From an uncultured Caulobacteraceae bacterium (GTDB lineage: Bacteria; Pseudomonadota; Alphaproteobacteria; Caulobacterales; Caulobacteraceae), in NCBI GenBank assembly GCA_903929535.1, contig CAIYVC010000147.1:1-55458 (forward strand): a DNA stretch of 55,458 nucleotides, in the 5' to 3' direction. The translations under genes and the position numbers were made by a program. Position 1 is the first letter of the stretch. Each line of letters starts with the position of its first letter. The notes below the pieces were generated by a model. It was not told where the DNA came from and made no database searches. It saw only the letters and a program-made list of their open reading frames with translations. Shown piece after piece: positions 8,301 through 34,008 of the stretch.

Positions 8301-8543
8301 GGGGTGCCGATGATCCTGGGCCAGGGCACGGGATCGGAATTCCGCCACCCGCTCGGCTGGGCGATCGTCGGCGGTCTGATCGTGTCCCAGGCCCTGACCC
8401 TGTTCTCGACCCCGGTGATCTACGTCTACCTCGACCGGATGCGCCGCCACTTCGGCGCCGAGGCCAAGCCCGTCCGGGCCCCGGCGGGACAGCGCGTGGA
8501 CTCGCCCGCCGCGGCGCGGGAAGTCACCATCGGCGACGGCTAG
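5370..8543 (+). CDS. RND multidrug efflux permease (MdtB/MdtC-like)
   Basis: A 1057-residue inner-membrane proton-drug antiporter of the AcrB/MdtC class, full length for the family. It starts with the typical SSPFIKRPVATSLIAAAFLV and the LPQVDFPTIQVSA loop. It carries the TM4 proton-relay aspartates (AVGFVVDDAIVMVE), and near TM10 the LIGIVKKNGIMIVD motif with the essential lysine. Two periplasmic porter regions lie between the twelve predicted helices. MdtBC-type pumps export bile salts, novobiocin or aromatic compounds through a periplasmic adaptor and an outer-membrane channel. Neither an adaptor nor a TolC-type gene is present next to it. The preceding gene is unrelated and ends 104 bases upstream, so partners must be encoded elsewhere or the permease works with shared ones. 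Key residues are intact, so it should be functional. Confidence 0.92.
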   Translation: MSISSPFIKRPVATSLIAAAFLVVGLVCYFQLPVSALPQVDFPTIQVSASLPGASPETMASNVATPLERQLSLIPGVTQLTSSSGLGSTQVVLQFELSRSLDAAAQDVQAAVTAAGGQLPNNLPAPPNIRKVNPADSSVFVLQMTSATLPLSTVNDYADNIVAQRLSRIDGVGQVNLFGPVKPAIRIQIDPRKAAALGLNLEQIRTAIASNTVNAPKGQLVGNDRNMTIYANDQVQDAETWNQLIIGYSKGAPIRVKDVGRAIKDAENVFQGAFSYPGAANKNPNLKTGPTVMIGVNKAPGANVIRTVEAMKAALPSLRANIPSSINMEIAADRTQTIRASVKDVQITLLITISLVVGVIFLFLRNVRATIIPSAVIPLSLLATAAIMLPAGFSLDNLSLMAMTIAVGFVVDDAIVMVEAIWRRIEHGEKPFQAALNGAGEISFTILTIAISLIAVFTPLMFMGGVVGRLMREFALTLSAAVVLSVTLSLTFTPMLCAKFLKPPEPLKNPFMKGLERGFHGLEKSYARGLEVVMRHKLLTVAVFALTAVLAVYLYATAKTGFFPQQDTGFLAGSLNATQDAAYGVTKAKAIEAGKIIAADPDMEEAHVTMNGNNTTQANLNFGLRSKESGRKASSEDVIARLRPQLARIIGAQVFLQSQPDIVIGKGGRALYQYTLSDGDLDELNTWAPRLLDALEKIPQIKDVSSDQQSSASSATLTIDRDAAGRFGLSPVDIDAAIYNQVGQRQVAQYFTQLNSYRVIMEGPPGLQGSPDLFNNIFINSPRTGKPVPLSMLIKVDTSKTRQVTISHQGQLPAATLSFNLAPGIALGEATKLIEEAKAELGAPETLVGSFQGTAQAFQESLSTMPILILAALMSVYIILGVLYESYIHPLTILSTLPSAGVGALLALRLSGQDLNVIGIIAIILLIGIVKKNGIMIVDVALKLEREEGMGPEEAVVQASHQRLRPILMTTACAFLGGVPMILGQGTGSEFRHPLGWAIVGGLIVSQALTLFSTPVIYVYLDRMRRHFGAEAKPVRAPAGQRVDSPAAAREVTIGDG

Positions 8544-8564
8544 TTCGGCAGACTCGTCCGGCCC

Positions 8565-9851
8565 CTACTTGGCGGCGGCCTCGACCTTGGCGTGGGCTTC
8601 CGAGCCGCCCACCGAATAGATAACCTGGCTGTTGCGGGTTTTCTGGAACTCGTCGAGCGTCTGGCCGCGCATGGCCGCATAGACGTGCAGGTTCGACACC
8701 CCTGACACCGCCGCCAGCTTCTCCAGCATGAAGAAGATGACGCCGTACTGCATCATCGCCCGCCAATCGAGGCGGCGGATCATGTCGCGCTCGTTCTCAG
8801 GCAGGCCGGCCTTGTCGAAGGCGGCTTCCGGATCGGCCTTGAAGGCGGCGCGATGCTCGGGCCTGACCAGATCGTGCAGGAAGCGGTTCAGCCGGTAGTA
8901 GGCGACGCTGCGGTCCAGATCGAAGGGATAGGTGCCCTCCAGCTTCTCGATGCCGCGCAGCTGCTCGTCCGCCTTGGCCCGCGCCGTCCTGGCCATCTCG
9001 GCCGACATGGGCTCGGCCTGGTTCTCGTAGATGGCGGTGCAGATCGCCGTCATCGAGGGCAGGTAGTAGGTCTTGTGAACGCAGTTGACCCCCGCGGACA
9101 GGGCGCCGCGGGCCAGCAGCCACATCACCACCTCGGAGCTTTCCATGCCGCCGAGGCGGGCGTGGTCGGCGTGGGTCAGGCGGGTCAGGGACACAGGATC
9201 GTTTTCCAGCAGCTCCAGGAATTCCTCGTCCCAGGCCGGGTTGTTGAAGCCGCAGCGCTCGCCCTGGACCTGGTGCGACAGGCCGCCGGTGGCGACCACC
9301 GCGACGTTGATGTCCTCGGGATAGCTCTCGATGGCGTTGCGCAGCGCCTGGCCCAGATTGTAGCAGCGGTTGGCGCTGGGCACGGGGAATTGCAGCACGC
9401 CCACCTGCAGCGGGATGATCGGGATCGGCCAGTCCGGCTCGTGCGGCATCAGCATCGACAGGGGCGAGAAGCAGCCGTGGTCCAGATCCCGGTTCTGGAA
9501 GAAGGACATGTCGAATTCGTCGGCCATCAGCGCCTTGCCGATGTGCCGGGCCAGCTTGCCGTGGCCCTTGATCGGCGGCAGATCGCGCCGCCCGCCGCCC
9601 TCGTCGGCCACGCGGTACTCCTCGCCGATGCCCAGGCAGAAGGCCGAGTAGTGGTCGAAGAAGAAGGAGCTCAGATGGTCGTTGTAGACCACGAACAGGG
9701 CGTCCGGCTTCTTCTCGCGCAGCCACTGCTGGATCGGCTCATAGGCCTGGAAGATCGGGGCCCAGACCGGATCGTCCTGCTTCTTGCCGTCGTAGGCGAA
9801 GCCGATGGTCGGGGTGTGGGACGTGGCGATCATGCCGAGGATGCGGGCCAC
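8565..9851 (-). CDS. desB: Gallate dioxygenase (fused LigB-LigA type extradiol dioxygenase)
   Basis: The predicted reaction is ring opening of gallate to 4-oxalomesaconate with Fe(II) and O2. The 428 residues match DesB/GalA in length and architecture: a LigB-like catalytic domain (about 1-285) fused to a LigA-like domain (about 310-410, with EAAFDKAGLPENERDMIRRLDW). Iron ligands are visible as His12 (MIATSH), His59 (VVYNDH) and a glutamate in GGMESSEVVMWL, probably Glu240. Active-site His125 (LDHGCF) and the base His193 (GGLSHQ) are present. A C-terminal extension rich in Ala follows. The gene ends an operon with two triple-SnoaL exported proteins, 70 bases downstream of the second. Substrate could be gallate, protocatechuate or a methoxygallate; fusion and length favour gallate. 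Other gallate-pathway enzymes (hydratase, aldolase) are not in the window, although a LigI-like amidohydrolase is 9 kb away. Confidence 0.85.
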   Translation of the reverse strand: MARILGMIATSHTPTIGFAYDGKKQDDPVWAPIFQAYEPIQQWLREKKPDALFVVYNDHLSSFFFDHYSAFCLGIGEEYRVADEGGGRRDLPPIKGHGKLARHIGKALMADEFDMSFFQNRDLDHGCFSPLSMLMPHEPDWPIPIIPLQVGVLQFPVPSANRCYNLGQALRNAIESYPEDINVAVVATGGLSHQVQGERCGFNNPAWDEEFLELLENDPVSLTRLTHADHARLGGMESSEVVMWLLARGALSAGVNCVHKTYYLPSMTAICTAIYENQAEPMSAEMARTARAKADEQLRGIEKLEGTYPFDLDRSVAYYRLNRFLHDLVRPEHRAAFKADPEAAFDKAGLPENERDMIRRLDWRAMMQYGVIFFMLEKLAAVSGVSNLHVYAAMRGQTLDEFQKTRNSQVIYSVGGSEAHAKVEAAAK

Positions 9852-9921
9852 TTAAGCCTCCTATCGAAGAGAACCGGCGGACCCGAAAGCCCGCCGCCGT
9901 TATACGCCTAAACGCTGCGCC

Positions 9922-12045
9922 TTAGCGCACCGGAACGTGGTGCTTGGCCTCCAGATCAGCCTCGCAGGTCTTGATGTCGGGGCAGTAGTTGGGCGGCTCC
10001 TTGCCGGTCACTGGGTTCTTGTAGTTGAACCACATCGGCTTGATGTTCGGCCAGATCACCGCGTTTTCCGGATCCCGGGAGTGGTCGTCGATACCGTAGA
10101 AGCGGATCTTCATCTTGGTGATCCGGTCATAGTCCGGGTCCGAGGCGCCGGGGGGCGGGATCTTGTGGGTGTCGGCGACGGTATCGCCCCACTTGGACCA
10201 GCCCTCCTTGTAGGTCTTGGAAGACCAATAGGGCTCCTCGATGGAGACGACATCAGCCTTCCAGACGCCGTTCACGACCTTGAACTGGTCGTTGTACATG
10301 GCCCCGGACAAGACGCCCGGCATGTCGGGATCGACGCTGAAGCTGTGCAGGCGGGTGTGCTCGACCGACGACTTGCCGTCCTCGGAGACCACGATCACCG
10401 GCTGGAACATCATCCGCCCGCCCCAGCTGAAGCGGGGGTGCGGCAGGGGCTCGTCGCCCCAGCTGGTCTCGCACTTGGCGATGTGTTCGGCGCCGATGCA
10501 GAAGCCCAGGGCCTGTTTCCCGCGCCAGCCGTCCTTGGTGTAGAGGCGGCCCTCGTTGAGGAAATCGTTGTCCACCAGGAAGAAGCCGAAGGCGTGGGTC
10601 ATGTTATCCGACGCGTCATAGCCGTAGGAGCGCGACAGGCGCCGCTTAGCGTCGGCGATGCCGGCGGTCATGTCCTTGGCCGCGGGCGCGGCGGACGCCG
10701 CGCCGCCCGAGGCAGGCAGCAGGGGCGAAGCCGCCGCCACCTTTGACCCGGCGGGCAGAACCACCGGCTTTCCGGTCACCGGATGGGTTTGGAAGAAGAC
10801 CGGGATCACGCCGTCGCCCATCTTGTCGCCGGCGGGCGCGGGCTTGTCTGGGGCGAAACCGGCGGCGGGGGCCGGGGTCTCGATGCGGCTCTTGTTCCAG
10901 CCCTCGTAGTAGTCGGTCATCTGGGTCGGGAAGACGCGCATCTCGCGGATGCGCCACTTGCCGTCGGCGCCCTTGACGAAGCTGTTGACGAAGGTCGCCA
11001 GGCCGAGCCGCGCCATCTGGGTGTCGTTGTCGCCCAGTTCACGCCATTCCACGCCGCGCATCTGGGCGGTCTTGCCGTCGGCGGAGATCGAGACGGTCAT
11101 GTCGAACTTGGGCCGCTCGTTGAGCTGGCCCTTCTTCAGGCCGGGCGGGCCCAGGCGCTCGAAGGAATGGCGGATGCTCTTGGCCCCGACATAGACCCCG
11201 ACGTCCGCATCCTCCAGAACCGCGTCGGCGGTGAACAGGTCGCCCGCGTCGTCCCACATCTTGCGGTCGGCGTAGTAGCCGAAGGCGTTGTTCAGGTTGC
11301 GGATGTTGTCTTCGTCGTTGAGCGCGGTGATGCGCCTGTTGAGGTCGGCCAGGGCGGCGGCGGGCGCGCCCTTCAGGGCCGGGATTTCCATCTTGGCCGG
11401 CACGGCGGGCACGGGGATCGAGGCGTTGAAGGCGGTGAAGTGGAAGGGCACGAACGGCACTTCCCCGGCGGTCGTCCAGCCGTCCTTGTAGGTCCCGGCG
11501 GCGTAGGGATAGTAGTGGAGCGTGCCGATCTTCCAGACACCGTTCTCCTTCACATACCGGTTCTCCATCACCCCGATGCCCCAGCCGGGCAGGCTGTCAG
11601 GGCCGCCGAACTGGCCGTTCATGGTGACTTCGGAATAGCGGCCCTTGGCCGACTGGCCGTCGGCGGACAGGTGCACGACCGGGGTGTCGATCAGCTCGGC
11701 GCGCACGCCGCCGGGGGCCAAGCCCTCGCGCTTGCTCCAGCGGCCCGACAGGTACTTGTCGATGGCGGCGGGGCCGCTGACTGTCTCCTTGCCCCAGATC
11801 AGCTGACCCTTGGCCGAGAACAGGGCGCTCATCTGGCTCCACAGGCCGTACTGCGCGTACTGGGCGTAGGTCATCTGCAGCTTCTTGACCGCGCGCAGGT
11901 CCTCCATGCGCTGCACGTCCAGGGACAGCCGGGCGACCTTGGCGGCATCGTCCTGCGGGGCGGCCGGAGCGGCGGCCAGCGCCGGGGCCGCGAAGGCCAG
12001 GGCCGCCGCACAGGCGCCCATCGTCAACAGGCGTTTCGAGATCAT
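9922..12045 (-). CDS. Exported protein with three SnoaL-like domains (copy 2)
   Basis: The 707-residue product has a Sec signal peptide (MISKRLLTMGACAAALAFAA, cleavage near ALAAA). It then carries three repeats that each look like SnoaL/NTF2-type cone folds, at roughly 45-190, 238-385 and 455-620. Each repeat opens with a helix plus a D/E-containing 'MW..A.LF..D' pattern (LWSQMSALFSAKG; KMWDDAGDLFTADAVLED; DNDFLNEGRLYTKDGW). Each closes with VWKI / KWRIREM / VWKADV strands. Pro/Ala linkers join repeats 2 and 3. The C-terminus has WPNIKPMWFNYKNP and two cysteines (YCPDIKTC), suggesting a periplasmic disulfide. It is a paralogue of the gene just upstream (32 bases away in the same operon). SnoaL-fold proteins include isomerases, dehydratases and ligand binders, so a role on aromatic esters or lactones is possible but unproven. 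Confidence 0.75.
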   Translation of the reverse strand: MISKRLLTMGACAAALAFAAPALAAAPAAPQDDAAKVARLSLDVQRMEDLRAVKKLQMTYAQYAQYGLWSQMSALFSAKGQLIWGKETVSGPAAIDKYLSGRWSKREGLAPGGVRAELIDTPVVHLSADGQSAKGRYSEVTMNGQFGGPDSLPGWGIGVMENRYVKENGVWKIGTLHYYPYAAGTYKDGWTTAGEVPFVPFHFTAFNASIPVPAVPAKMEIPALKGAPAAALADLNRRITALNDEDNIRNLNNAFGYYADRKMWDDAGDLFTADAVLEDADVGVYVGAKSIRHSFERLGPPGLKKGQLNERPKFDMTVSISADGKTAQMRGVEWRELGDNDTQMARLGLATFVNSFVKGADGKWRIREMRVFPTQMTDYYEGWNKSRIETPAPAAGFAPDKPAPAGDKMGDGVIPVFFQTHPVTGKPVVLPAGSKVAAASPLLPASGGAASAAPAAKDMTAGIADAKRRLSRSYGYDASDNMTHAFGFFLVDNDFLNEGRLYTKDGWRGKQALGFCIGAEHIAKCETSWGDEPLPHPRFSWGGRMMFQPVIVVSEDGKSSVEHTRLHSFSVDPDMPGVLSGAMYNDQFKVVNGVWKADVVSIEEPYWSSKTYKEGWSKWGDTVADTHKIPPPGASDPDYDRITKMKIRFYGIDDHSRDPENAVIWPNIKPMWFNYKNPVTGKEPPNYCPDIKTCEADLEAKHHVPVR

Positions 12046-12076
12046 GGGAGTTCCTCCGGTGATGGCCGTGTTCTGG

Positions 12077-14188
12077 TTATGGGATCTTGCCGGCTTCGAG
12101 CGCCGGTTCGCAGGTCTTCAGGTCGGGACAATAGAGGGGCGGCAGGCGACCGCTGACGGGGTTCTTGTAGGAGAACCATACGGGCTTGATGTCGGGCCAG
12201 CGGATCACGTCGTTCGGCGGGATCGAGCCGTGGTGGCGCAGCGCCAGGCCCGCGCGCGGGATGTCCGGCGGGAAGTTGCCGATCGGCGCGACCGCCTGCT
12301 TGATCGGGGGGATGGTCTTGGGCTCGCCGAACTTGCGCGACCAGCCCGCCGCATAGCTCCAGGACTCCAGGAAGGGTTGATCGGGGGCCGCCACATCGAA
12401 CTTCCAGACCCCGTCCACCCGCTTGGCGGCGTTGTTGGGATAGAGGCCGTCATAGACCCCGACGCCGTAGGCGGTGGAGGTGTCCAGGTGCAGCAGATAG
12501 TTTCGCATCCGCGCCGACTGGCCATCCCCGGCCACGTCGATCACCGACTGGATCAGCCAGTGGGTGGTGGAGAAGACCCGCGGCAGGGCGGCCACGCCGT
12601 CGTAGTTGGTCTCGCAGGCCTCGGTGTGCTCGGGCCCGATACAGAAGGCCACCGCCGCCTTGGAGCGCCAGCCGTCCTTGGCCATCAGTTGGCCCAGGTC
12701 ATGCCACTGCTGGTCGTCGATATCGTGGCCCAGCGCATGGCTGACGTTGTCGGCGCCGATATAGGCGGTCGTCAGGGACAGACGGCGGGCGGCTTCGGCG
12801 ATGGCGGCGTTGATCGCGGTCGGAAGCGGGCGGGCGGCGGCGCCCTTGGCGGGAGGCAACAGGGCGCCTGACCCCACGGTTCCGGCTCCGACAGGCACAA
12901 CCACCGCTTTGCCGGTGACGGGATTGGGTTCGTAGAAGACCGGGATTGCGCCCTCGGTCAGGGCGCCCTTGTCGGCGGCCGGCGTGGGCTTGCCGGGCGC
13001 GGCGGCGCCGGTGGCGGGGGGCGGGGCCAGGCGGTTCTTGTGCCAGCCTTGATAGTAGTCGGTGGCCATGATCGGGAAGCTGCGCATCTCGCGGATGCGC
13101 CACTTGCCGTCCGGTCCGCGCACGAAACGGTTCTCGAAGACGGCGAGGCCCCAGGAGGCGGTCGCCGCGTCGTAGTCGCCGAGCATGGCGAACTCGGTCC
13201 CCCGCACCCGCGCCGTGCGGCCATCAGGGGCCACCGTCACGCTCTCATTGAAGTAGAGGCGGTTGTTGAGCTGGCCGCGCTTCAGACCCTGCGGACCAAA
13301 CCGTTCATAGGACTGGCGGATCGCTTTGGAGCCGGTCCAGACGCCTGTGTCCGCCTCTTCCAGCACCGCGCCCGAAGCGAACAGGTCCGAGGCGTCGTCC
13401 CACATCTTGCGGTCGATGTAGTAGCCGTAGGCGTTCTGCAGGTTGAGGACCTTGTCCTCGTCGTTCAGCCGCTGGATGCGCCGGGCGAGCCCGGCCAGGG
13501 CGGCGGCGGGCGCGCCTTTCAAGGCGGGGATGGCCATGTCGGCAGGGATCGGCGGAATCGGCGTTCCGGCCTGCTCGGCCGTGAAGTGGTGCGGGAGGGT
13601 GGCCAGGGTCGGGCCGACGCTCTTCCAGCCGGTCTCGTACGACCCTTCGCTGAGCGGGCTGTAGCGCAGATTGGCAATCTTCCAGACGCCGCCAACCTTG
13701 ACGTAGTCGTTCTCCATCTGCCCTTCCGCCCAGCCGGCGGCGCCGCCGTACTGCCCGAGCAGCGAAAACTGGTACCAGCGGCCCTTGGCGGTCTTGCCGT
13801 CGACGGCGAGGTTGAGCACCGGGGCGTCCACCAGCTGGGTGTGCAGCTGACCGGCGATCAACCCCTCATGCCCGCCGCCCCACCTGGCCTTGTAGAAGGC
13901 GGCGATGGCCGCAGGGCCCTTGGATGTCTCAGCGCCGTAGGCCGCGACACCGTCTTCGGCGAATAGGGACGCCATCTGCGTCCACAGCGCAGCCTGGGAA
14001 TACTGGGCGTAGGCGGTCTGGAGCTTGCGGACGGCGCGGATGTCTTCGGTGCGCTGGACCTCAAGCGACAGGCGGGCGATGCGGGCGGAGGAGGCGTCGG
14101 CGGCGCGGGCGGGGGCCAGGCCGAGAGCGGCGAAGCACAGACCGACCACAGCGGCGGCGCGCCAGCTCTTCCACAGCCTCCCGACCAT
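12077..14188 (-). CDS. Exported protein with three SnoaL-like domains (copy 1)
   Basis: First gene of the gallate-dioxygenase operon. The product (about 703 residues) has a signal peptide ending APARA and the same plan as its downstream paralogue: SnoaL-like repeats near 40-185, 235-380 and 450-610, Pro/Ala linkers, and a shared C-terminus (IRWPDIKPVWFSYKNPVSG, then YCPDLKTC). Repeat 2 is the best conserved between the copies (EDK.LNLQNAYGYYIDRKMWDDASDLF). Two adjacent ATGs exist at 14191 and 14188. GGGGGA lies better spaced for the second, so 14188 is used. Transcription probably starts in the 201-base divergent region shared with the NHL protein, which contains a GTATAC palindrome at 14309. 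No characterised homologue comes to mind; the export signal plus operon link to a ring-cleaving dioxygenase suggests handling of an aromatic precursor outside the cytoplasm. Confidence 0.75.
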   Translation of the reverse strand: MVGRLWKSWRAAAVVGLCFAALGLAPARAADASSARIARLSLEVQRTEDIRAVRKLQTAYAQYSQAALWTQMASLFAEDGVAAYGAETSKGPAAIAAFYKARWGGGHEGLIAGQLHTQLVDAPVLNLAVDGKTAKGRWYQFSLLGQYGGAAGWAEGQMENDYVKVGGVWKIANLRYSPLSEGSYETGWKSVGPTLATLPHHFTAEQAGTPIPPIPADMAIPALKGAPAAALAGLARRIQRLNDEDKVLNLQNAYGYYIDRKMWDDASDLFASGAVLEEADTGVWTGSKAIRQSYERFGPQGLKRGQLNNRLYFNESVTVAPDGRTARVRGTEFAMLGDYDAATASWGLAVFENRFVRGPDGKWRIREMRSFPIMATDYYQGWHKNRLAPPPATGAAAPGKPTPAADKGALTEGAIPVFYEPNPVTGKAVVVPVGAGTVGSGALLPPAKGAAARPLPTAINAAIAEAARRLSLTTAYIGADNVSHALGHDIDDQQWHDLGQLMAKDGWRSKAAVAFCIGPEHTEACETNYDGVAALPRVFSTTHWLIQSVIDVAGDGQSARMRNYLLHLDTSTAYGVGVYDGLYPNNAAKRVDGVWKFDVAAPDQPFLESWSYAAGWSRKFGEPKTIPPIKQAVAPIGNFPPDIPRAGLALRHHGSIPPNDVIRWPDIKPVWFSYKNPVSGRLPPLYCPDLKTCEPALEAGKIP

Positions 14189-14308
14189 CATTTCCCCCGA
14201 CCTGACTGTTCTTTATCTCGCCGCTCTCCGTCGCCGGGGCCGCGTTGTAATCCGCTAGAAACAGAAACGCGCGAGGGCTGGCAATCCCTTTCGTGCGCTA
14301 ATCGCGCG

Positions 14309-14314
14309 GTATAC
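14309..14314. promoter_or_regulatory. Candidate GTATAC operator in divergent intergenic region
   Basis: GTATAC within CGCGGTATACATCCG lies between the leftward triple-SnoaL/gallate operon and the rightward NHL-protein gene. The same hexamer occurs at the middle of a 12-base palindrome at 32843-32854 and again at 48031-48036, each time between divergent catabolic operons. GTATAC-centred palindromes are typical of GntR-family (FadR/VanR group) regulators. Here the flanks are only partly symmetric, so this is a weak call. Confidence 0.3.
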
Positions 14315-14389
14315 ATCCGGCGATGATGGACACCGTTCTCCGATCGTGCATCAACGGGACAAAATGAAGTGTCCATGGAGGAGGACCGC

Positions 14390-15463
14390 GTGAAGAAAAC
14401 CCTGTTTGCACTGGCGGCGTTGCTGATGGCCGGACCGGCCTTCGGGCAAGGCACGACCGCCGCGGATATCCCGTTCACCTCGACCCCCGGTTGGCCCCAG
14501 GAACTGCCCAACGGGCAGAACTTCGGCGAGACCCCCGGCGTGGCGACGGATTCCAAGGGCAATGTCTATGTCGCCTCGCGCTCGAGCCCCAATGTGGCGG
14601 GCCCGGCCTTCGGCGCGGCGGCCGGTCAGCTCTTCGAGTTCACCAAGGAAGGCAAGTTCATCCGGGAGATCGGCAAGGGCCTCTACGGCTGGTCCGAGAT
14701 CCACAGCGTGCGCATCGACCGCTTCGACAACATCTGGGCCATCGACAAGGGCTCGGACATGGTCATCGAGTTCAACCAGGCCGGCCGGGTGGTCAAGGTA
14801 TTCGGGCGCAAGAAGGAGGCGGAGGAAGATCCGCACGCCTGGCAGAACCTGAACCCGCCGTTGCCGCCGCTGGAGTCCAGCTTCCGCGCCCCGACCGACA
14901 TCGCCTGGGACTCTAAGGACAACATCTACATCTCGGACGGCTACACCAACTCGCGCGTCGCCAAGTTCGACAAGGACGGCAACTTCGTGAAGATGTGGGG
15001 GACCCCCGGCGACAAGCCCGGTCAGTTCAACCTTCCCCACGCCATCGTCATCGACAAGAACGACAACGTCTACGTCGGCGACCGCACCAACCACCGGGTG
15101 CAGGTGTTCGACACCGACGGCAACTTCAAGCGCCTGTTCTCGGTTGACGTGCCGCCCGACCCCACCACCAAGGCGACGAACGGCTCCACGCCCACGGGCG
15201 CCCTGCTGAAGCAATGGATCGGCGCGCCCAACTCGCTGTGCATCCCGCCCGACAACCCCAACGTGCTGTTCCTGGGCGAGTCGACCTATCCGGGGCGCAT
15301 CTTCAAACTGCGTCTGGACGGAACCATCATCGGCACCTTCGGCAAGTCGGGCCGCATCCTGGGCACCTTCTCCGGCGCGCACGGTCTGGCCTGCCCGTCA
15401 GAGCACCTGCTCTATGTGGCCGAGACCTCCAACTGGCGCATCCAGCAGGTCCACCTGAAGTAG
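14390..15463 (+). CDS. Exported NHL-repeat beta-propeller protein
   Basis: A 357-residue secreted protein: signal peptide MKKTLFALAALLMAGPAFGQ, then NHL-type repeats forming a six-bladed beta-propeller. The repeats are visible as recurring G(V/I)A.D..GN(V/I)Y(V/I)(A/S/G)D...(H/S)RV..F...G.F blocks (DSKDNIYISDGYTNSRVAKF; DKNDNVYVGDRTNHRVQVFD). Such propellers include lactonases, peptidylglycine-amidating lyase-like enzymes and ligand-binding proteins. No catalytic set was recognised. The start is GTG at 14390 because GGAGGAGG ends five bases before it and translation from there begins exactly at the signal peptide. An upstream in-frame ATG (14375) overlaps that Shine-Dalgarno. The gene is monocistronic, ends in a bidirectional terminator, and is divergent from the gallate operon, so co-regulation is plausible. 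Confidence 0.8.
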   Translation: MKKTLFALAALLMAGPAFGQGTTAADIPFTSTPGWPQELPNGQNFGETPGVATDSKGNVYVASRSSPNVAGPAFGAAAGQLFEFTKEGKFIREIGKGLYGWSEIHSVRIDRFDNIWAIDKGSDMVIEFNQAGRVVKVFGRKKEAEEDPHAWQNLNPPLPPLESSFRAPTDIAWDSKDNIYISDGYTNSRVAKFDKDGNFVKMWGTPGDKPGQFNLPHAIVIDKNDNVYVGDRTNHRVQVFDTDGNFKRLFSVDVPPDPTTKATNGSTPTGALLKQWIGAPNSLCIPPDNPNVLFLGESTYPGRIFKLRLDGTIIGTFGKSGRILGTFSGAHGLACPSEHLLYVAETSNWRIQQVHLK

Positions 15464-17691: not shown

Positions 17692-18957
17692 ATGGAAACG
17701 GCTCTGAACAGCGCTGTTCGCAAGGTCGGCTGGCGCTTCATGCCCCTGCTGCTGACCGGCTTCGTGCTGAGCTACATGGACCGCAACAGCATCGGCTTCG
17801 CCGGGCTGACCATGAACAAGGACCTCGGCATGACCGCCTCCCAGTTCGGGCTGGCGGCGGGCATCTTCTTCATCAGCTACTCCCTGTGCGAAGTCCCCAG
17901 CAACGTCATCCAGTACCGGATCGGCGCGCGGCTGTGGCTGTCGCGGATCATGATCACCTGGGGCATCGCCTCGGCGGCCACCGCCTTCGTCGTCGGGCCC
18001 AAGAGCTTCTACGCCGCCCGCTTCATCCTCGGCATCGCCGAGGCGGGCTTCTTCCCCGGCGTGGCCTACTTCCTGGCCGCCTGGTTTCCCGAACGCCAGC
18101 GCACGCGGATGTACGGCTGGCTGCTGCTGGGCATCCCTTTGTCGTCGGTGATCGCCGGACCGATCTGCAGTCTGCTGCTGCAGCTTGACGGGCTGTTCGG
18201 CATCGCGGGCTGGAAGTGGATGTTCGTGTTCGTCAGCCTGCCCTGCTCGGTGCTCGGCCTCGTCGGGCTGAAGGTGCTGCGCGACAACCCCTCACAGGCT
18301 GACTTCCTGACCGACGAGGAGCGCGAGGCGCTGCAGGCGGAAATCCTGGCCGAGCAGAAGACGCGCGACAAAAAGAGTCTTCTGGGCGCCCTGAGGGACC
18401 CGCGTGTGCTGATCCTGGCGGCGACCCATTTCGGCTTCACCCTGGGCTCCTACGCCATCACCATCTGGCTGCCGCAGATCATCAAGGAATTCCACCTGAC
18501 CAATCTGGCGGTCGGGTTCACCTCGTCGGTCCCCTACATCGTCTCGTCCCTGGCTATGCTGGTCTGGTGCTGGTGGGTGGACCGCAAGGGCAAGACCATC
18601 CTCAACATCGTGGTCGGCTGCGCCCTGGCGGCGGGGGGCCTGTGGTGGGCGGTCGTCTCGACCCATTCGCTGGTGATGTCCCTGACAGCGATCACGGTGG
18701 GCCTGGTCGGGGTGGTCTCGGCGCGGGCGCTTCTGTGGTCGTTGCCCTCGAAGTTCCTGACGGGGCTGGCGGCCTCGGGCGGCATCGCCTTCATCAACAC
18801 CGTCGGCACCACCGGCGGCTTCGTCGGGCCCTACATGATGGGGGTGGTCAAGGACGCCACCGGATCGTTCCAGACGGGGATCGCGGTCCTGGCCTGCATC
18901 CTCATGTTCAGCGGTGTCTGCGCCCTGAGCCTCAAGCTCTTCATCAAGGACGATTGA
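17692..18957 (+). CDS. MFS transporter, ACS (anion:cation symporter) type
   Basis: A 421-residue, twelve-helix major facilitator permease. After a short cytoplasmic N-terminus, helix 1 is followed by the family's SYMDRNSIGFAGLTMNKDLG. The GIAEAGFFPGVAYFLAAWFP segment is characteristic of ACS members that carry organic anions such as phthalate, hexuronates, tartrate or aromatic acids. A long cytoplasmic loop (around TDEEREALQAEILAEQ) separates the two six-helix halves. It is the second gene of the dehydrogenase-carrier-amidohydrolase operon, only four bases before the amidohydrolase ATG, so it most likely imports the acid that these enzymes consume. A second ACS-type carrier is encoded at 22274-23521; they belong to different operons and probably have different substrates. 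Confidence 0.88.
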   Translation: METALNSAVRKVGWRFMPLLLTGFVLSYMDRNSIGFAGLTMNKDLGMTASQFGLAAGIFFISYSLCEVPSNVIQYRIGARLWLSRIMITWGIASAATAFVVGPKSFYAARFILGIAEAGFFPGVAYFLAAWFPERQRTRMYGWLLLGIPLSSVIAGPICSLLLQLDGLFGIAGWKWMFVFVSLPCSVLGLVGLKVLRDNPSQADFLTDEEREALQAEILAEQKTRDKKSLLGALRDPRVLILAATHFGFTLGSYAITIWLPQIIKEFHLTNLAVGFTSSVPYIVSSLAMLVWCWWVDRKGKTILNIVVGCALAAGGLWWAVVSTHSLVMSLTAITVGLVGVVSARALLWSLPSKFLTGLAASGGIAFINTVGTTGGFVGPYMMGVVKDATGSFQTGIAVLACILMFSGVCALSLKLFIKDD

Positions 18958-18961
18958 GGCG

Positions 18962-19912
18962 ATGATGACCCGGCGTGAACTCGGCCTGGCCGCCGGCGCC
19001 GCCACATTGGCGCTGGGCGATCACGCTTCGGCTCAAGACAAGACAAAAGGACGCCGCATGGCCACGCCGCCGCTGACCTGCGACTGCCACATCCACATCG
19101 TCGGCCCGCCCGCCAAATACCCCTTCATCGCCGACCGCCAATACACCCCGCCCGAGGCCTCGCTGGCCGACCTCGCCGCCCTGCGCGCCCGCACGGGGGT
19201 CCAGCGCAATGTGCTGGTGCAGCCCAGTTTCTACGGGACCGACAACCGCTGCATGCTGGATTCCCTGGCGCAGCTGGGCGCGAGCGCGCGCGGGATCTGC
19301 GTCGTGGAGCCCGACATCGCCGACGGCGCCCTGCGGGACATGGACAAGCGCGGCGTGCGTGGGGTGCGGCTCAATCTCGCCACCACCGGCTTCAGCAACC
19401 TCGGCACCGTGCAGCAGGAGATCGCGGCGCTCGGCGCGCGGCTGAAGCCGCTGAACTGGCACATCCAGATCTACACCTCGCTGGACAATGTCGTGGCCCT
19501 GGCTCCGGTGATCGCCAAGTCGCCCGTTCCGGTGGTGCTCGACCATTTCGCCATGGCCATGGGCGACAAGGGGACCGGGCAGAGCGGCTTCGATGCCTTG
19601 CTCAAACTGGTCAAGGACGGCCCGGCCCATGTGAAGCTGTCGGCGCCCTATCGCATCTCCGATCATCCGCCGGTCTATGCCGACGCGGCTCCCCTCGCTC
19701 GCGCCCTGATCGCCGCCAATCCGGCGCAGATGGTCTGGGGCAGCGACTGGCCGCACACGGTGAGGACCCAGGGCAAGGGGCCGCTGGATATCCACCCCTT
19801 CCTGGTGATGGACGAGCCGGGCACGCTGGACCTGATGGCCGACTGGGCGCCGGACGCCAGGGTCCGCCACGCCATCCTGGTGGACAATCCGGCGCGGCTC
19901 TACCGGTTCTAG
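18962..19912 (+). CDS. LigI-like amidohydrolase (2-pyrone-4,6-dicarboxylate hydrolase family)
   Basis: A 316-residue amidohydrolase-2 family enzyme. The metal-site HxH is in CDCHIHIVGP, with the family patterns YTPPEASLADL, VLDHFAM and WGSDWPHT. LigI opens the lactone ring of 2-pyrone-4,6-dicarboxylate, a gallate/protocatechuate 4,5-cleavage intermediate, which fits the gallate dioxygenase 9 kb away; other lactonases of the family are possible. Two starts compete. ATG 18962 adds a Tat/Sec-like leader (MTRRELGLAAGAATLALG, cleavage near ASAQ), following GAGGCG. ATG 19058 has AAGGA six bases ahead and begins exactly at the enzyme core (MATPPLTCDCHIHI). The two forms would be exported and cytoplasmic. 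It follows the MFS gene by four bases and ends overlapping a convergent gene by four. Confidence 0.8.
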   Translation: MMTRRELGLAAGAATLALGDHASAQDKTKGRRMATPPLTCDCHIHIVGPPAKYPFIADRQYTPPEASLADLAALRARTGVQRNVLVQPSFYGTDNRCMLDSLAQLGASARGICVVEPDIADGALRDMDKRGVRGVRLNLATTGFSNLGTVQQEIAALGARLKPLNWHIQIYTSLDNVVALAPVIAKSPVPVVLDHFAMAMGDKGTGQSGFDALLKLVKDGPAHVKLSAPYRISDHPPVYADAAPLARALIAANPAQMVWGSDWPHTVRTQGKGPLDIHPFLVMDEPGTLDLMADWAPDARVRHAILVDNPARLYRF

Positions 19913-21405: not shown

Positions 21406-22281
21406 TTATTTGGCCTGGGTGATGCCGTTGACCGGCTTGTTGCGGTTGTTCTCTTCGCAGATGAACTCCTGGTTCCGCAGTTCCGGGCGCCAGTTGAACC
21501 AGATCGGCATCATCTGATAGGGCCGTTTCAGCGTCACCGGATCCTCGATGGTGTTGTCCATCTGCAGCTTGCGGCCGCCGTCGATCTTGCGGATGCGCTC
21601 GATCACATGCTGCTGAGTCGAGTGGCGGCTGCCCTCATCGTCGATCAGGGTGCGGTTGTTGAGCTTGGTGGTGTCGACCACCAGGGTGTCGCCTTCCCAG
21701 TGGCCGATGGACTCGCCCAGGAAGCTGGGGCCCATGCGTGGGTCGTGCTTGTCCGTCATGTAGATGCGGCGGATGTTGTGCATGGTTTCCAGCAGCAGGA
21801 TGTACTGCTCGGGCTCGCCGTGGGCGCCCGCCGGCGCATGCACGATCTCGATCGGATAGGGCGAATCCATCGCCCGCGGCGTGCCGTGCGGGAAGCACTG
21901 GGTCGAGGCGTCCGCGATCGGGATGCCCTTGTTCTTGGTGCGGATGTGCTCTTCCAGCAGCTTGACGTACTTGGGCTTCAGCGGCGGCGGCACGCCGAGC
22001 GCCGGGCCGAACAGCTTGTGCGTTCCCTCGATCCACCAGTGGCCTTCCAGATCGTGGGGATCGGGATTGGGCGGGGCCGAGCCGGCGGGGGCGGGGCCCG
22101 AGATCACCCCGTTGCCGGTCAGGGACAGGGTCGGATCGTCGCCGTTGTAGAGGTTGCGCGGCTTGTTCGCCCCGAACTGGGCCAGGGCGCCGGTCGCCAT
22201 CGCCGCCGCGCAGACCACGCCGAGGCCGCAAGCCAGGGCCCGGCGCCGGAAGGTCCTGGCGGAGGTTGCGGGACTAAGCAT
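21406..22281 (-). CDS. Exported protein of unknown function, WEGDTLVVDT family (copy 1)
   Basis: This 291-residue protein has a signal peptide (hydrophobic stretch ALACGLGVVCAAAMATGALA) and a mature part starting QFGANKPRNLYNGDD. Recognisable blocks are PHDLEGHWWIEG, KPKYVKLLEEHI, the cysteine/His motif ASTQCFPHGTPRAM, LLLETMHNIRRIYMTDKH, GHWEGDTLVVDTTKLNNRT and the terminal NQEFICEENNRN. The same blocks recur in the protein at 31653-32504 and partly at 30895-31656, so these are paralogues. Two conserved cysteines suggest a disulfide in the periplasm. I know this kind of protein as common and uncharacterised in sphingomonads and Caulobacterales. It is the last gene of a four-gene operon (esterase, aminotransferase, MFS carrier, this protein), overlapping the carrier by eight bases. 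Function unknown. Confidence 0.8.
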   Translation of the reverse strand: MLSPATSARTFRRRALACGLGVVCAAAMATGALAQFGANKPRNLYNGDDPTLSLTGNGVISGPAPAGSAPPNPDPHDLEGHWWIEGTHKLFGPALGVPPPLKPKYVKLLEEHIRTKNKGIPIADASTQCFPHGTPRAMDSPYPIEIVHAPAGAHGEPEQYILLLETMHNIRRIYMTDKHDPRMGPSFLGESIGHWEGDTLVVDTTKLNNRTLIDDEGSRHSTQQHVIERIRKIDGGRKLQMDNTIEDPVTLKRPYQMMPIWFNWRPELRNQEFICEENNRNKPVNGITQAK

Positions 22282-29758: not shown

Positions 29759-30202
29759 ATGAAAACGACCGCCTTCGCCGGCGCTCTTGCCGTGCTCGCT
29801 TTGATGACGAGCGGCGCGGCCTCTGCTCAATCCAGCGCCCCGTATGGCGCTCCAATCTCGCTGGAAAGCGCCAAGGCCGTGGGCGCCGCCGTCCATGCCG
29901 AAGCCGTCAAGCGCAAGGTCCCCGGCACCTTCGCGGTGGTCGATATCCTGGGTGAAATGGTGGTCGTGGACCGGGGCATGGACGCCTCCAACGGCGCCGT
30001 GGACATCGCCCTGGCCAAGGCCCGCTCGGCGATCAAGTACAAGAAGGCCAACCTGGCGTTGGAAGGCTTTCCCGCGGGTCTCGACGGCATGGGCGCCGGC
30101 GGCGCTCTGCTGATGTCCGGCGGCAAGATCGTCGGCGCCATCGGCGTCTCGGGCGGCGCCGAAGGCGCTCTGGCCCAGGCCGGCGCCGCGGCGTCGAAAT
30201 AA
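29759..30202 (+). CDS. Exported GlcG/DUF336 (HbpS-like) protein
   Basis: The 147-residue product has a Sec signal peptide (MKTTAFAGALAVLALMTSGA, cleavage after ASA). The rest is a DUF336/GlcG domain: PISLESAKAVGAAVHAEAVK, TFAVVDILGEMVVVDRGMD, ALAKARSAIKYKKAN, and the glycine-rich GGALLMSGGKIVGAIGVSGG. GlcG is encoded with glycolate oxidase in E. coli. Exported relatives bind haem (HbpS) or act in cobalamin/propanediol metabolism, but a catalytic role for this class is not settled. A GGAGGGA Shine-Dalgarno precedes the ATG. The second copy follows after 29 bases, so the two are co-expressed. The glycolate module itself lies 8 kb downstream. Confidence 0.82.
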   Translation: MKTTAFAGALAVLALMTSGAASAQSSAPYGAPISLESAKAVGAAVHAEAVKRKVPGTFAVVDILGEMVVVDRGMDASNGAVDIALAKARSAIKYKKANLALEGFPAGLDGMGAGGALLMSGGKIVGAIGVSGGAEGALAQAGAAASK

Positions 30203-30231: not shown

Positions 30232-30756
30232 ATGCTGAAGACCTTCGGACCGGCCGCGATCGCCGCCGTCCTCCTGATCGCCTCTCCCGCCCTGGCTCAG
30301 GCTCCGGCCCCCGCCGCCGGCGCGCCTGCCGCGGCCCCGGCCGCCCGGGCGCCGCCCTTCCCGGCGCCGATCCCGTACGGGCCGACCATCACCTACGAAC
30401 AGGCGCACAAGGTGCTCGACGCCGCCCTGGCCGAAGCGGCCAAGCGCAAGGTGGCGGCCACCATCGCCATCCTCGATAACGCGGGCGGCATCGTCTACTA
30501 CGAGAAGCCCAGCTCGGTGGCCTACAACGCCAAGGCCCTGGCCTATCAGAAGGGCTTCTCCTCGGCCCGCACCACCCGCCCCTCCAAGTTCGAGGCGGAC
30601 CGCTATCCCTTCAACGCGGGCATCCTGGCCATCGACGACGTCTTCCCCTTCGCGGGCGGCCAGGCGATCGTTGCTGACGGCAAGGCCATCGGCGCCATCG
30701 GCGTGACCGGTGGTGACGACCCCGTCGCCCTGGCCGGGGTCGCGGCGCTGAAGTAG
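30232..30756 (+). CDS. Exported GlcG/DUF336 protein (second copy)
   Basis: The 174-residue product is a paralogue of the previous gene: signal peptide MLKTFGPAAIAAVLLIASPA, an Ala/Pro linker, then a DUF336 domain with ITYEQAHKVLDAALAEAAKR, VAATIAILDNAGGIVYYEKP, YQKGFSSARTTRPS and GGQAIVADGKAIGAIGVTGG. Compared with copy one it has a longer linker and a PYGPTITYEQ start. AAGGA is eight bases before the ATG. A strong intrinsic terminator follows at 30782-30811. Role unknown; haem or small-ligand binding in the periplasm is the usual suggestion for exported members. Confidence 0.82.
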   Translation: MLKTFGPAAIAAVLLIASPALAQAPAPAAGAPAAAPAARAPPFPAPIPYGPTITYEQAHKVLDAALAEAAKRKVAATIAILDNAGGIVYYEKPSSVAYNAKALAYQKGFSSARTTRPSKFEADRYPFNAGILAIDDVFPFAGGQAIVADGKAIGAIGVTGGDDPVALAGVAALK

Positions 30757-30894: not shown

Positions 30895-31656
30895 TTATTT
30901 CTTTTCGGTCTTTTCAGCCTTGGCGGCAGGCGCGGCGGCGGCGGTCTTCTTGGCGCCGACGGTCGAGCTCTGCGTGAAGTGGGTGGAGCAGACTTCTTCC
31001 GGGATGTGGAAGTTGCCCGGCATGCGCTTGTAGTGCGCCACCGTGGTCCAGGACGAGGTGTAGAAGGCCGGATCGTCGATGGTCAGCTTGTCTTCCAGGA
31101 TTTCGCCCTTGATGCTGACACGCTCGATGACGTGGATGTCGGCGCTGTGCGGCAGGCCGGAGCGGTCCACCACGTTCTTGTCGTTCAGGCCGACGGTGTC
31201 GATGACGAGGGTGTCGCCTTCCCACTTGGCCGAGGCGTCGCCCATGTAGGTCGGGTCGATGTCGTCCTTGGCCGGGTGCGGCTGATCCACGTAGACCCAG
31301 CGCGGGATCCGGTTTTCCTGGTACAGGAAATAGACCTGCTTGGGCTTCTGCAGGATCTGGAACGGCTTGGCGATCAGCTGGACGTAGGGCAGGCCCGGAG
31401 GCAGGCATTCGGTCACGCCGTCGAAGGAGCGGTTGCCCTTCTTGGCCGAGGCCAGGTTCTTGTCATAGATGGCCTTGCCCTTGGCATTGAGCGGCGGGGT
31501 CTTGCCGTCTTCGGTCTTGGCGGTCGCGATCGGCGCCGTCAGGGTCCAGATGCCGGAGATGTCCGGGTGAGCCGGGTCCTGAGCGAAGGCGCTGGCGCCC
31601 ATCAGGGCGAAAGCGGCGGCGGGCAGGACGGCGAGAGTGCGGATTGAAGGTTTCAT
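30895..31656 (-). CDS. Exported protein of unknown function, WEGDTLVVDT family (copy 3, divergent member)
   Basis: A 253-residue exported protein (signal MKPSIRTLAVLPAAAFALMG, cleavage after AFA). The mature part starts QDPAHPDISGIWTLTAP. It shares with its upstream neighbour and with 21406-22281 the blocks KPFQILQKPKQVYFLYQENR (equivalent to the ETLHNIRRIYLTDKH region), KWEGDTLVIDTVGLNDKN, HSADIHVIERV and a late cysteine (EEVCSTHF). It ends in an Ala/Lys-rich tail (AAPAAKAEKTEKK). The ATG overlaps the stop of the upstream paralogue in an ATGA arrangement, so the two are translationally coupled and may form a complex. No enzymatic motif is recognised. Confidence 0.78.
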   Translation of the reverse strand: MKPSIRTLAVLPAAAFALMGASAFAQDPAHPDISGIWTLTAPIATAKTEDGKTPPLNAKGKAIYDKNLASAKKGNRSFDGVTECLPPGLPYVQLIAKPFQILQKPKQVYFLYQENRIPRWVYVDQPHPAKDDIDPTYMGDASAKWEGDTLVIDTVGLNDKNVVDRSGLPHSADIHVIERVSIKGEILEDKLTIDDPAFYTSSWTTVAHYKRMPGNFHIPEEVCSTHFTQSSTVGAKKTAAAAPAAKAEKTEKK

Positions 31657-32504
31657 TTTGCGGTCGTGATCCCGTTCTTGTCGACGCCGTTGCGGTTGTT
31701 CTCTTCGCAGATGAACTCCTGGTTCCGGATGTCCGGGCGCCAGTGGAGCACCGTGCGGGTGGTGTAGGGGTGGTAGAGGGTCACCGGGTCATAGACGGTG
31801 CTCAGCACTTCCAGCTTGGAGCCGTCGGCGCTCTTGTGGATGTGCTCGACCACGCGCTCCTTGGTGGAGTGGGATGAGCCCTCGTCGTCCAGATAGGTGC
31901 GGGTGTTCATCTTCTGAGTGTCGACCACCAGGGTGTCGCCTTCCCAGCGGGCGATGGACTCGCCCAGGAAGCTCTCGCCCATGTTGGGGAAGTGCTTATC
32001 CGTCAGATAGATGCGGCGGATGTTGTGCAGGGTCTCCATCAGGATGGTGACCTGAGCCGGGTGGCCGTGGCCGGCGGGGCTCATGATCACTTCCACCGGA
32101 TAAGGCGACTCGATGGCGCGCGGGGTGCCGTGTGGGAAGCACTGGGTCGAGGCGTCGCCCTCAGGAATGCCGCTGTTGGTGTCGCGCATGCGCTTTTCCA
32201 GCATCGCCATATACTTGGGCTTCAGCGGGGCGGGCACGCCGGCTTCCGGGCCAGCCAGATGCTTGATCCCGAAGTTGACCCAGTGACCGTTCAGGTCATG
32301 CGGATCGCTGTTGGGCGCCAGGGTCCCGGCGGGCGCAGGGCCCGAATCCGCGGACGGGGCGGTGATTTCAAGCGTGTGATCGGAGCCGTTGTAAAGATTG
32401 CGGCCTGAGTCCCGCTGCGCCAGCGCGCTGGACCCCATCAGCACTGCAATCGCGCCGAGCCCGCAGCCCAACGCCAAACGTCCCAGTTTTCTGGGATCTT
32501 TCAT
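31653..32504 (-). CDS. Exported protein of unknown function, WEGDTLVVDT family (copy 2)
   Basis: The 283-residue product has a signal peptide (hydrophobic LGRLALGCGLGAIAVLMGSS, cleavage near ALA) and the full block set of the family: RNLYNGSDHTLEI, PHDLNGHWVNFG, KPKYMAMLEKRM, DASTQCFPHGTPRAIE, METLHNIRRIYLTDKH, ARWEGDTLVVDTQKMNTRT, HSTKERVVEHI and NQEFICEENNRN. It is clearly closest to the protein at 21406-22281. The start at 32504 has GGGAGGTGG upstream and begins the signal peptide; the open frame extends 33 codons further but without features. First gene of a two-gene operon with the overlapping copy 3. It lies in a divergent arrangement with the LigA/LigB module across 420 bases. Confidence 0.8.
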   Translation of the reverse strand: MKDPRKLGRLALGCGLGAIAVLMGSSALAQRDSGRNLYNGSDHTLEITAPSADSGPAPAGTLAPNSDPHDLNGHWVNFGIKHLAGPEAGVPAPLKPKYMAMLEKRMRDTNSGIPEGDASTQCFPHGTPRAIESPYPVEVIMSPAGHGHPAQVTILMETLHNIRRIYLTDKHFPNMGESFLGESIARWEGDTLVVDTQKMNTRTYLDDEGSSHSTKERVVEHIHKSADGSKLEVLSTVYDPVTLYHPYTTRTVLHWRPDIRNQEFICEENNRNGVDKNGITTAK

Positions 32505-32924: not shown

Positions 32925-33182
32925 ATGCGCGACTACTGGCTCAGCCGCTTCTTCTTCGAGATGCAGCAGGCCGACGTGCGCCGCCGCTTCGCCGAAGATC
33001 CCCAGGCGGTGATGGACGCCTACCGCCTCGCGCCCCAGGTCCAGACCCTGGTGCGGGCCAACGACGTGACGGGCCTGGCCGAGCTCACCAACCCCTATCT
33101 GTTGCGTTTCTATTTCGGCTACGTCGGCATGCCCGAGGCTGAGTTCCTGCGCAGGATCCGCGGCGAGGCCGCCCATGGCTGA
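32925..33182 (+). CDS. LigA-like small subunit of an extradiol dioxygenase
   Basis: An 85-residue protein resembling the alpha (LigA) subunit of protocatechuate 4,5-dioxygenase: a compact all-helical protein with RFFFEMQQADVRRRFAEDPQ and AELTNPYLLRFYFGYVGMP. LigA subunits cover the active-site entrance of LigB and do not carry the iron. At 85 residues it is shorter than classical LigA (about 140) and lacks the N-terminal arm. GGGAGG is five bases before the ATG. It overlaps the LigB-like gene by eight bases, so the two are made together as subunits of one enzyme. Confidence 0.82.
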   Translation: MRDYWLSRFFFEMQQADVRRRFAEDPQAVMDAYRLAPQVQTLVRANDVTGLAELTNPYLLRFYFGYVGMPEAEFLRRIRGEAAHG

Positions 33183-34008
33183 GTTGGTAGGCGTATTCGC
33201 GGCCAGTCATGGCCCGGTCATCGTGCGCGACTGGGACAAGCTCGATCCCAAGATCCAGGGCGACCTCAACGCCGCCTTCGAGGAGACCGGCCGCCGCCTG
33301 ATGGCGAGCCGCCCCGATCTGATCGTGGTCATCTCGCCCGACCACTGGGTCAACTTTTTCATGAACAACCTGCCGGGCGTCTGCATCGGCGTGGGCGAGG
33401 AGCATGCCGGCCCGCCCGAACCCTTCATGAAGCCCTATCCCTATGCCGAGAGCATGCGCGGCGATCCGGCCTTCGCCGCCCACCTGGTCGAGACGGCCAT
33501 GCGCCGCGATTTCGAACCCGCCATCTCCCACCACCTGATCCTGGACCACGGCTTCTGCCTGCCCCTGTGGAAGATGAAGCTGGACTACCTGCCCCTGATC
33601 CTGCCGATCGCCGTCAACGATCTGGAGCCGCCGATGATCAGCATCCGCCGCTGCCTGCAGTGGGGACGGCTGCTGGCGCAGGCCATCGCCGACTATCCGC
33701 ATCCCCTGCGCGTGGCGGTGCTGGCCACCGGCGGTCTCAGCCATTCGATCGGGGAGAGCACCATGGGCCAGGTCGACGAGGCCTTCGACCGGCGCTGCAT
33801 CGCCGCCTTCCAGGCGGGCGACGACACCACCATCATCGAGGCGCTGGAGGATGGCCTGACCCGCACCGGCAACGGCGCCCAGGAGGTCCGCAACTGGGTG
33901 GTGGCGCACGGCGCCGCCGGCGGCGGCCGCTTCGACCTGATCGACTATCTGCCGACGCCCGAGGTCTATGTCGGCTGCGCCTTCGCCTCCTGGGAACCCG
34001 CCCGATGA
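33175..34008 (+). CDS. LigB-like catalytic subunit of an extradiol ring-cleavage dioxygenase
   Basis: The 277-residue product is a LigB-superfamily (type II) extradiol dioxygenase. Fe(II) ligands are seen as His12 (VFAASH), His57 (VISPDH) and Glu237 (NGAQEVRNWVVAHGA). Active-site His125 (ILDHGF) and the base His190 (ATGGLSH) are also present. It would cleave a catechol-type ring next to a hydroxyl with O2. The sequence is clearly different from the fused gallate dioxygenase in this window, for example in the PGVCIGVGEEHAGPPEPF loop that replaces the gallate enzyme's specificity loop, so a different substrate is expected. Its ATG lies inside the LigA-like gene and its stop overlaps the next ATG (ATGA) in the hydrolase gene. 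Confidence 0.88.
   Translation: MAELVGVFAASHGPVIVRDWDKLDPKIQGDLNAAFEETGRRLMASRPDLIVVISPDHWVNFFMNNLPGVCIGVGEEHAGPPEPFMKPYPYAESMRGDPAFAAHLVETAMRRDFEPAISHHLILDHGFCLPLWKMKLDYLPLILPIAVNDLEPPMISIRRCLQWGRLLAQAIADYPHPLRVAVLATGGLSHSIGESTMGQVDEAFDRRCIAAFQAGDDTTIIEALEDGLTRTGNGAQEVRNWVVAHGAAGGGRFDLIDYLPTPEVYVGCAFASWEPAR

Follow-up and report, generated by a model that had tools for sequence, protein, structure and literature searches.

What might two apparently exported proteins, each built from three SnoaL-like domains, be doing beside a gallate dioxygenase? The question is raised by a stretch of 55,458 nucleotides (contig CAIYVC010000147.1 of assembly GCA_903929535.1; hereafter, the window) from an uncultured Caulobacteraceae bacterium with a 3.02-Mb draft genome that is 91% complete. 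On the minus strand of the window, in order of transcription, lie the genes for the apparently exported proteins C1 (12077–14191; 704 residues) and C2 (9922–12045; 707 residues), followed by a gene for a fused LigB–LigA gallate dioxygenase (8565–9851; 428 residues, GTG start). An original prediction, made from the sequence alone, had placed all three in one operon and had suggested that the exported pair binds, isomerises or de-esterifies a polyphenol before import and ring opening. Our own answer, on which we regard the scales as evenly poised, is that C1 is a single-chain, three-domain aromatic lyase of the periplasm and C2 a partner without the catalytic dyad; we infer export from sequence, and likewise the type of reaction, the class of substrate and the role of C2.

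Pfam recognised three stretches of SnoaL_4 (PF13577) in each exported protein (C1, 179 bits, 3.4e-53; C2, 142 bits, 1.3e-41; cut-off 24). Structure prediction, which the original prediction had proposed as a check, gave AlphaFold models (made with 13 aligned sequences) containing three helix-sheet NTF2-like units in C1 (predicted local distance difference test, pLDDT, 81.2; predicted template modelling score, pTM, 0.87) and also in C2 (pLDDT 78.8, pTM 0.85), bearing out the three domains claimed for each. Judged by eye, the N-termini of C1 and C2 resemble Sec signal peptides and that of the dioxygenase does not; the Pro/Ala linker and cysteine-paired tail (C-x5-C) described earlier for the exported proteins are also present. 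The gap between C1 and C2 measures 31 bases rather than the 32 first given, and that between C2 and the dioxygenase 70 bases, as given. In a congener—a Caulobacteraceae metagenome-assembled genome of the same genus (G002, whose locus L009 was the nearest named relative)—the C1–C2 order is retained with a 30-base gap, so the two genes likely form one transcription unit. The dioxygenase scores 737 bits against a cut-off of 412 for the NF009904 gallate dioxygenase equivalog, has Pfam LigB (residues 7–273) and LigA (321–407) domains, and finds its best solved relative in PDB 3wku (1.4e-170).

The best sequence match for both exported proteins (phmmer; C1 3.1e-21, C2 2.4e-17) was LdpA, a lignin erythro-1,2-diguaiacylpropane-1,3-diol (DGPD) C-gamma-formaldehyde lyase (PDB 8abt–8abw), and Foldseek ranked LdpA structures top for both models. 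In VIA-align, applied to C1 only, LdpA reached Z 15.7 (2.5 Å over 207 residues of repeat 2, 226–434), and the next row outside LdpA was LinA, at Z 10.6. The accessible text of two papers describes LdpA and PcfL as turning lignin dimers into stilbenes with loss of formaldehyde (PMC11323797, PMC12997858). Gallate decarboxylation was considered as the reaction and dropped, because the Arxula gallic acid decarboxylase scored Z 9.3, far below LdpA. De-esterification, among the activities originally suggested, is unlikely, since fold and dyad would fit lyases and dehydratases.

The active-site column was fixed from the substrate-bound structure of LdpA H97Q (PDB 8abu), whose substituted residue corresponds, in the sequence alignments, to the His in LDHFQLQ. 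Read at the Tyr-Asp-His positions, repeats 1, 2 and 3 give YQQ, YDR and LDH in C1 and YQE, FDR and FVR in C2. In C1, all on the minus strand, repeat 1 (residues ~36–195; 13607–14086) has Y61, Q66 and Q119, without an LdpA-type dyad; repeat 2 (~233–390; 13022–13495) has Y255, D260 and R311, with Arg at the place of LdpA His97; and repeat 3 (~465–612; 12356–12799) retains D492 and H544. An LdpA-type His97 with its partner Asp occurs in C1 repeat 3 only; of the shared dyads that the original prediction had looked for in each pocket, those in C1 repeats 1 and 2 and in all of C2 fell away. Among 51 fused proteins with 550 residues or more (close relatives and one doubled contig, L009/L120, included), repeat 3 carried the Asp in 44 and the His in 47; for repeat 2 the counts were 50 with D, 23 with H and 24 with R, and for repeat 1 two with D and four with H.

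The C2 of the congener also reads FVR in repeat 3, so the loss of the dyad in C2 is not a sequencing error; in the same genome C1 repeat 2 reads YHR, with H for D. Between window and congener, the ratio of nonsynonymous to synonymous substitution rates (dN/dS) is 0.24 for C2, at 82% identity, and 0.29 for C1, at 73%. C2 is thus under purifying selection and more conserved than C1, despite the loss of the dyad in every repeat. That there is a pair of apparently exported proteins holds good; it is doubtful that the two have equal roles, since no repeat of C2 retains the LdpA-type His.

A 16-row profile (E 1e-50) was used to survey genomes. Positives numbered 2/385 in the class and 8/249 in the window's family (f1), its own genome included in each, and 25/347 in a second family, f17, to which G301 belongs; named loci, L010 and L015 among them, lead us to guess that this is a sphingomonad family. 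By our reading of the match table, 16 of these 25 have a full fused gene and the other nine match via shorter genes. Single-domain genes were surveyed in 20 stretches chosen around single-domain matches, from those nine genomes and from eleven that have a fused gene, of which G019 belongs to f1 and the remaining ten to f17. Two or more tandem single-domain SnoaL genes were found in 19 (L134 is cut by a contig end), most of the genes carrying their own signal peptide by eye; L126 and L127 additionally hold a two-domain gene of 445 residues. Directly 3′ of the last array gene, on the same strand, lies a quinohaemoprotein alcohol dehydrogenase with pyrroloquinoline quinone (PQQ) and cytochrome c domains in 16/20 stretches; 17/20 hold one anywhere (none in L126, L127 or L145; on the opposite strand in L134), and its best solved relative is 1kv9, a type II quinohaemoprotein alcohol dehydrogenase (2.2e-195). 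Other genes, in clusters labelled from scans of one to three members each, encode strictosidine-synthase-like propellers (10/20), molybdenum-cofactor dehydrogenases (6/20) and tannase-family proteins (4/20).

Array residues were read in 18 stretches (L128–L145), L126 and L127 being excluded for their more complex gene order. Unit 1 was FDW in 16/18 (FDF in L134, YDH in L145), unit 2 YDH or FDH in 17/17 and unit 3 YDH in 17/17, and an asymmetry—a degenerate first unit, then later dyads—appears common to most split and fused forms. In a domain tree of 18 proteins chosen from the 51, the rows of repeat 1 all fell together, as did those of repeat 2, and each of these two branches held one single gene of G019 (98/94, 95/75); of the repeat 3 rows, 16/18 formed a third branch (86/98), with L090 and L092, both of G019, outside. 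The single genes come from a G019 locus (L025/L145) with three adjacent single-domain genes, each with a signal peptide, whose domains group with the fused repeat 1, 2 and 3 branches (support 98/88, 98/95 and 96/51). Units of the f17 arrays fell near, not inside, the repeat branches, unit 1 as sister to repeat 1 (96/77). On this tree the three units would have diverged before most of the proteins, and fused and split forms of the same set exist, a classical sign that the parts work together. More widely in G019, contigs C4, C8, C13 and C19 hold numerous SnoaL genes, both triple and single and in some cases interrupted by in-frame stops (L021, L025, L027, L028, L030–L036, L090, L092 and L093), in what looks like a local expansion with decay. 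A plasmid search returned one record, covering 22% of C1.

How might the pair act? C1 would belong to a group of NTF2-like lyases best known through LdpA and PcfL, which split gamma-formaldehyde from lignin dimers without a cofactor; other relatives include LinA, scytalone dehydratase, bile-acid 7-alpha dehydratase and gallate decarboxylase. Asp–His acid–base catalysis would bring about dehydration or C–C lysis, via a quinone-methide-like intermediate, of a plant-derived aromatic in the periplasm. Repeat 3 (D492/H544) would be catalytic, possibly together with repeat 2 (D260/R311), and repeat 1 would be a structural or binding unit; C2, as a dyad-less paralogue, would most likely bind or present the substrate or pair with C1. 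The product would be imported, reduced to gallate-type rings and then opened by the dioxygenase. Because AGDC1 and LinA—along with PPP2, in the accessible text of PMC7862292—are trimers of one such domain, it is attractive to model the three-domain chain as a pseudo-trimer. We propose more tentatively that each three-domain protein joins in one chain, as a covalent pseudo-trimer, the subunits of a periplasmic NTF2-like lyase that are obligately three in number and have separate exported genes in other bacteria, one domain being degenerate and two catalytic; that this lyase works together with a quinohaemoprotein alcohol dehydrogenase along an undescribed extracytoplasmic path by which lignin- or tannin-type oligomers become gallate-type rings; and that C2 is a fully pseudo-enzymatic second copy. 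Array relatives beside quinohaemoprotein alcohol dehydrogenases, some near molybdenum dehydrogenase and tannase-family genes, lend further support to aromatic catabolism. The periplasmic aromatic role originally predicted thus keeps the backing of the SnoaL fold, the signal peptides, the LdpA relationship and the genome-level co-occurrence with the dioxygenase described below; tight gene linkage is the part that it has lost.

Several observations weigh against C1 as such a lyase with C2 as its partner. Identity to LdpA is only 24–28%, and LdpA chains are single domains of 251–263 residues, against about 700 residues in three domains here. C2 has E, R and R in the His column of repeats 1–3, and repeat 2 carries Arg for His in both proteins. 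Shared ancestry together with an aromatic-degrader life style may partly explain the genome-level co-occurrence. Neighbours of the fused genes are also variable. Clustering over 40 fused-gene stretches (the window included; cluster labels come from scans of one to three members) found Amidohydro_2 proteins in 17, AraC regulators in 14, TonB receptors in 13, aldehyde dehydrogenases in 10, iron alcohol dehydrogenases and bicupin-like proteins (the latter by eye) in 9 each, PQQ alcohol dehydrogenases in 6, NHL propellers in 5 and LigB in 3, counts that are not independent because sister species are included and some clusters mix subfamilies. The NHL propeller was rejected as a general partner: matches at 1e-40 occurred in 14/249 genomes of f1, and only 3 of the 14 (G000, which is the window's genome, G002 and G644) were SnoaL-positive, with the two genes on separate contigs in G644.

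Best placed among the alternatives, if doubtful, is that the dioxygenase is a chance neighbour and that C1–C2 serve another class of compound. Besides the displaced dioxygenase of the congener, which lies ~8.5 kb from C1–C2, beyond the NHL gene, this explanation draws on the absence of any SnoaL relative from the retrieved surroundings of the dioxygenases in G009, G019 and G014 (for G014 no more than 9.9 kb, to a contig end), and on a count over 33 hand-listed triple loci in 24 genomes (G009 fragments counted once): a LigB gene lies within 10 kb of four, where 1.15 are expected (p 0.03, or 0.11 if window and congener are taken as one). Beyond the window these are L009, at 8.5 kb; L103, with adjoining, convergent LigA-like and LigB genes; and L092, where two small genes separate the locus from a LigB-like gene. 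On these numbers tight linkage was rejected as a general rule, and the recurrent association with LigAB-type dioxygenases by which the original prediction had proposed to be judged did not emerge. For a single operon speak strand and order; the congener speaks against it, and a terminator-like hairpin within the 70-base gap (9875–9896, minus strand) is not significant, because two such sites were found in 8400–14600 against 3.0 expected by shuffling. What tells against a chance neighbour is co-occurrence across genomes, with gallate dioxygenase scored at 1e-100: in f17 it is present in 24/25 profile-positive and 9/322 negative genomes (p 1e-28; by genus, 6/7 versus 5/89, p 3e-6), and in f1 in 5/8 and 6/241 (p 3e-6; p 0.054 at genus level). 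The dioxygenase is better described as accompanying these proteins across genomes than as sharing their operon. In G019, at L122:5040–9771, a gallate dioxygenase lies one gene away from a member of the PQQ alcohol dehydrogenase cluster.

We think it unlikely that C1 and C2 are periplasmic binding proteins rather than enzymes, with pockets that take a TonB-delivered aromatic and pass it to a dehydrogenase or transporter. The strong conservation of the dyad-less C2 would suit such a role, as would the TonB receptor cluster (13/40 fused stretches; one member scanned) and a second cluster of large proteins (7/40) labelled TonB without a scan. However, Asp and His are mostly retained in the later units of the 51 fused proteins and the 18 arrays, at positions where, in the accessible text of PMC7862292, LinA, scytalone dehydratase and AGDC1 have their catalytic dyad.

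That C1 and C2 are accessory subunits which stabilise a periplasmic PQQ alcohol dehydrogenase or hand on its product is improbable: 16/20 single-domain arrays do run straight into such a gene, but clustering places one in only 6/40 fused stretches, the window not among them, fused triples occur without any dehydrogenase match at 1e-60 in G542, G589 and G644, and both matches in G000 are on other contigs. A tautomerase or isomerase of ring-cleavage products, resembling MgaD (a pfam13577 protein and predicted tautomerase of 3-O-methylgallate cleavage in syringate catabolism, in the accessible text of PMC12314914), has the dioxygenase gene adjoining C2 in its favour and is very improbable, as the signal peptides, by eye, would put C1 and C2 in a different compartment from the dioxygenase.

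Several other genes of the window can be set beside C1 as a putative lyase and C2 as its partner. An NHL beta-propeller with a signal peptide by eye (14375–15463, plus strand) is divergent from C1; the copy in the congener, 91% identical, also lies beside C1, and in L011, L013 and L016 a relative (40–44%) comes immediately after the triple gene. Further along the plus strand, a profile scan identified an HpaX-like MFS transporter (17692–18957; below the family cut-off), a candidate uptake step, and a sequence search gave 2-pyrone-4,6-dicarboxylate hydrolase (LigI-type) as best solved relative of an Amidohydro_2 protein (18962–19912), consistent with 4,5-cleavage of gallate or protocatechuate. 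A second LigB-type dioxygenase gene followed by an alpha/beta hydrolase-like gene (by eye; 33175–34790, plus strand) is possibly a separate meta-cleavage pair, and two adjoining genes of one cluster (48214–49710 and 49719–51281, plus strand), the first a carboxylesterase by Pfam, possibly encode esterases of aromatic esters. Propeller, transporter, hydrolase, second LigB and esterases near the pair together fit a catabolic region for aromatic acids. The window also encodes three related, apparently exported proteins (21406–22200, 30895–31656 and 31653–32444, minus strand) with no Pfam match at 1e-5, whose cluster recurs in L090, L093, L111 and L120, and two adjoining small, apparently exported proteins (29759–30202 and 30232–30756, plus strand), which resemble the GlcG/HbpS type.

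Around fused genes elsewhere, an amidohydrolase sharing 66% identity or more with the one in L099—a query picked because it lies beside a fused gene—occurs in 8/24 genomes, its source included, and in 7/8 within 8 kb of a fused gene. The LigI-like protein of the window was rejected as an orthologue of this enzyme, G000 having no match to it at 1e-25; the Amidohydro_2 cluster of 17 stretches is a single-linkage group of mixed subfamilies. Iso_dh was rejected as a conserved neighbour in the congener, at only 38% identity. The bicupin-like and DUF8021-like neighbours (both by eye) had no match in PDB, in Pfam at 1e-5 or in NCBIfam at 1e-3. A beta-keto acid cleavage enzyme of the 3,5-dioxohexanoate/triacetate type (NF053538, its cut-off exceeded in the one scanned member, from L099) lies near fused genes in 6/40 stretches (L099, L102, L091, L015, L111 and L116); such an enzyme is known from anaerobic phloroglucinol degradation in the accessible text of PMC10470551, and these neighbours are at most a hint of a phloroglucinol pathway.

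NTF2-like deformylation of lignin dimers has so far meant LdpA and PcfL, and LdpA chains are single-domain. A multi-unit set with signal peptides, fused or split, is a candidate periplasmic step with named residues, D492 and H544; genomes with gallate dioxygenase are where the set is concentrated, and it often lies beside quinohaemoprotein alcohol dehydrogenases, predicted to be periplasmic, a neighbourhood that hints at some undescribed early step of plant-aromatic breakdown. The accessible text of PMC12997858 credits strain SYK-6 with 62 NTF2-superfamily homologues and expects undiscovered lignin-associated pathways. A literature search at the level of result listings, with most subscription papers outside it, brought up no description of a three-SnoaL protein that we recognised; the one match for ‘three SnoaL’, on fungal products (PMC9890505), was likewise taken at listing level.

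Set against known systems, the dioxygenase is a clear and ordinary member of the DesB-type gallate dioxygenases (PDB 3wku), with nothing notable to separate it from them. MgaD of Pseudomonas sp. NGC7, compared by its description in the accessible text only, shares SnoaL_4 with C1 and C2 and sits in a gallate/methylgallate cleavage pathway; unlike them, it has a single SnoaL-like domain. The gallic acid decarboxylases AGDC1/PPP2, LinA, scytalone dehydratase and bile-acid 7-alpha dehydratase have the same fold and an Asp–His dyad, with one domain per chain and low identity (VIA-align Z 9–10.6). Closest are LdpA and PcfL: unlike LdpA, with its one domain of ~250 residues, C1 and C2 have three domains and signal peptides, and C2 and C1 repeat 1 are without the His, but the NTF2-like fold is shared, LdpA and PcfL are known from aromatic-degrading bacteria, and the active-site Asp and His of LdpA are both retained in C1 repeat 3.

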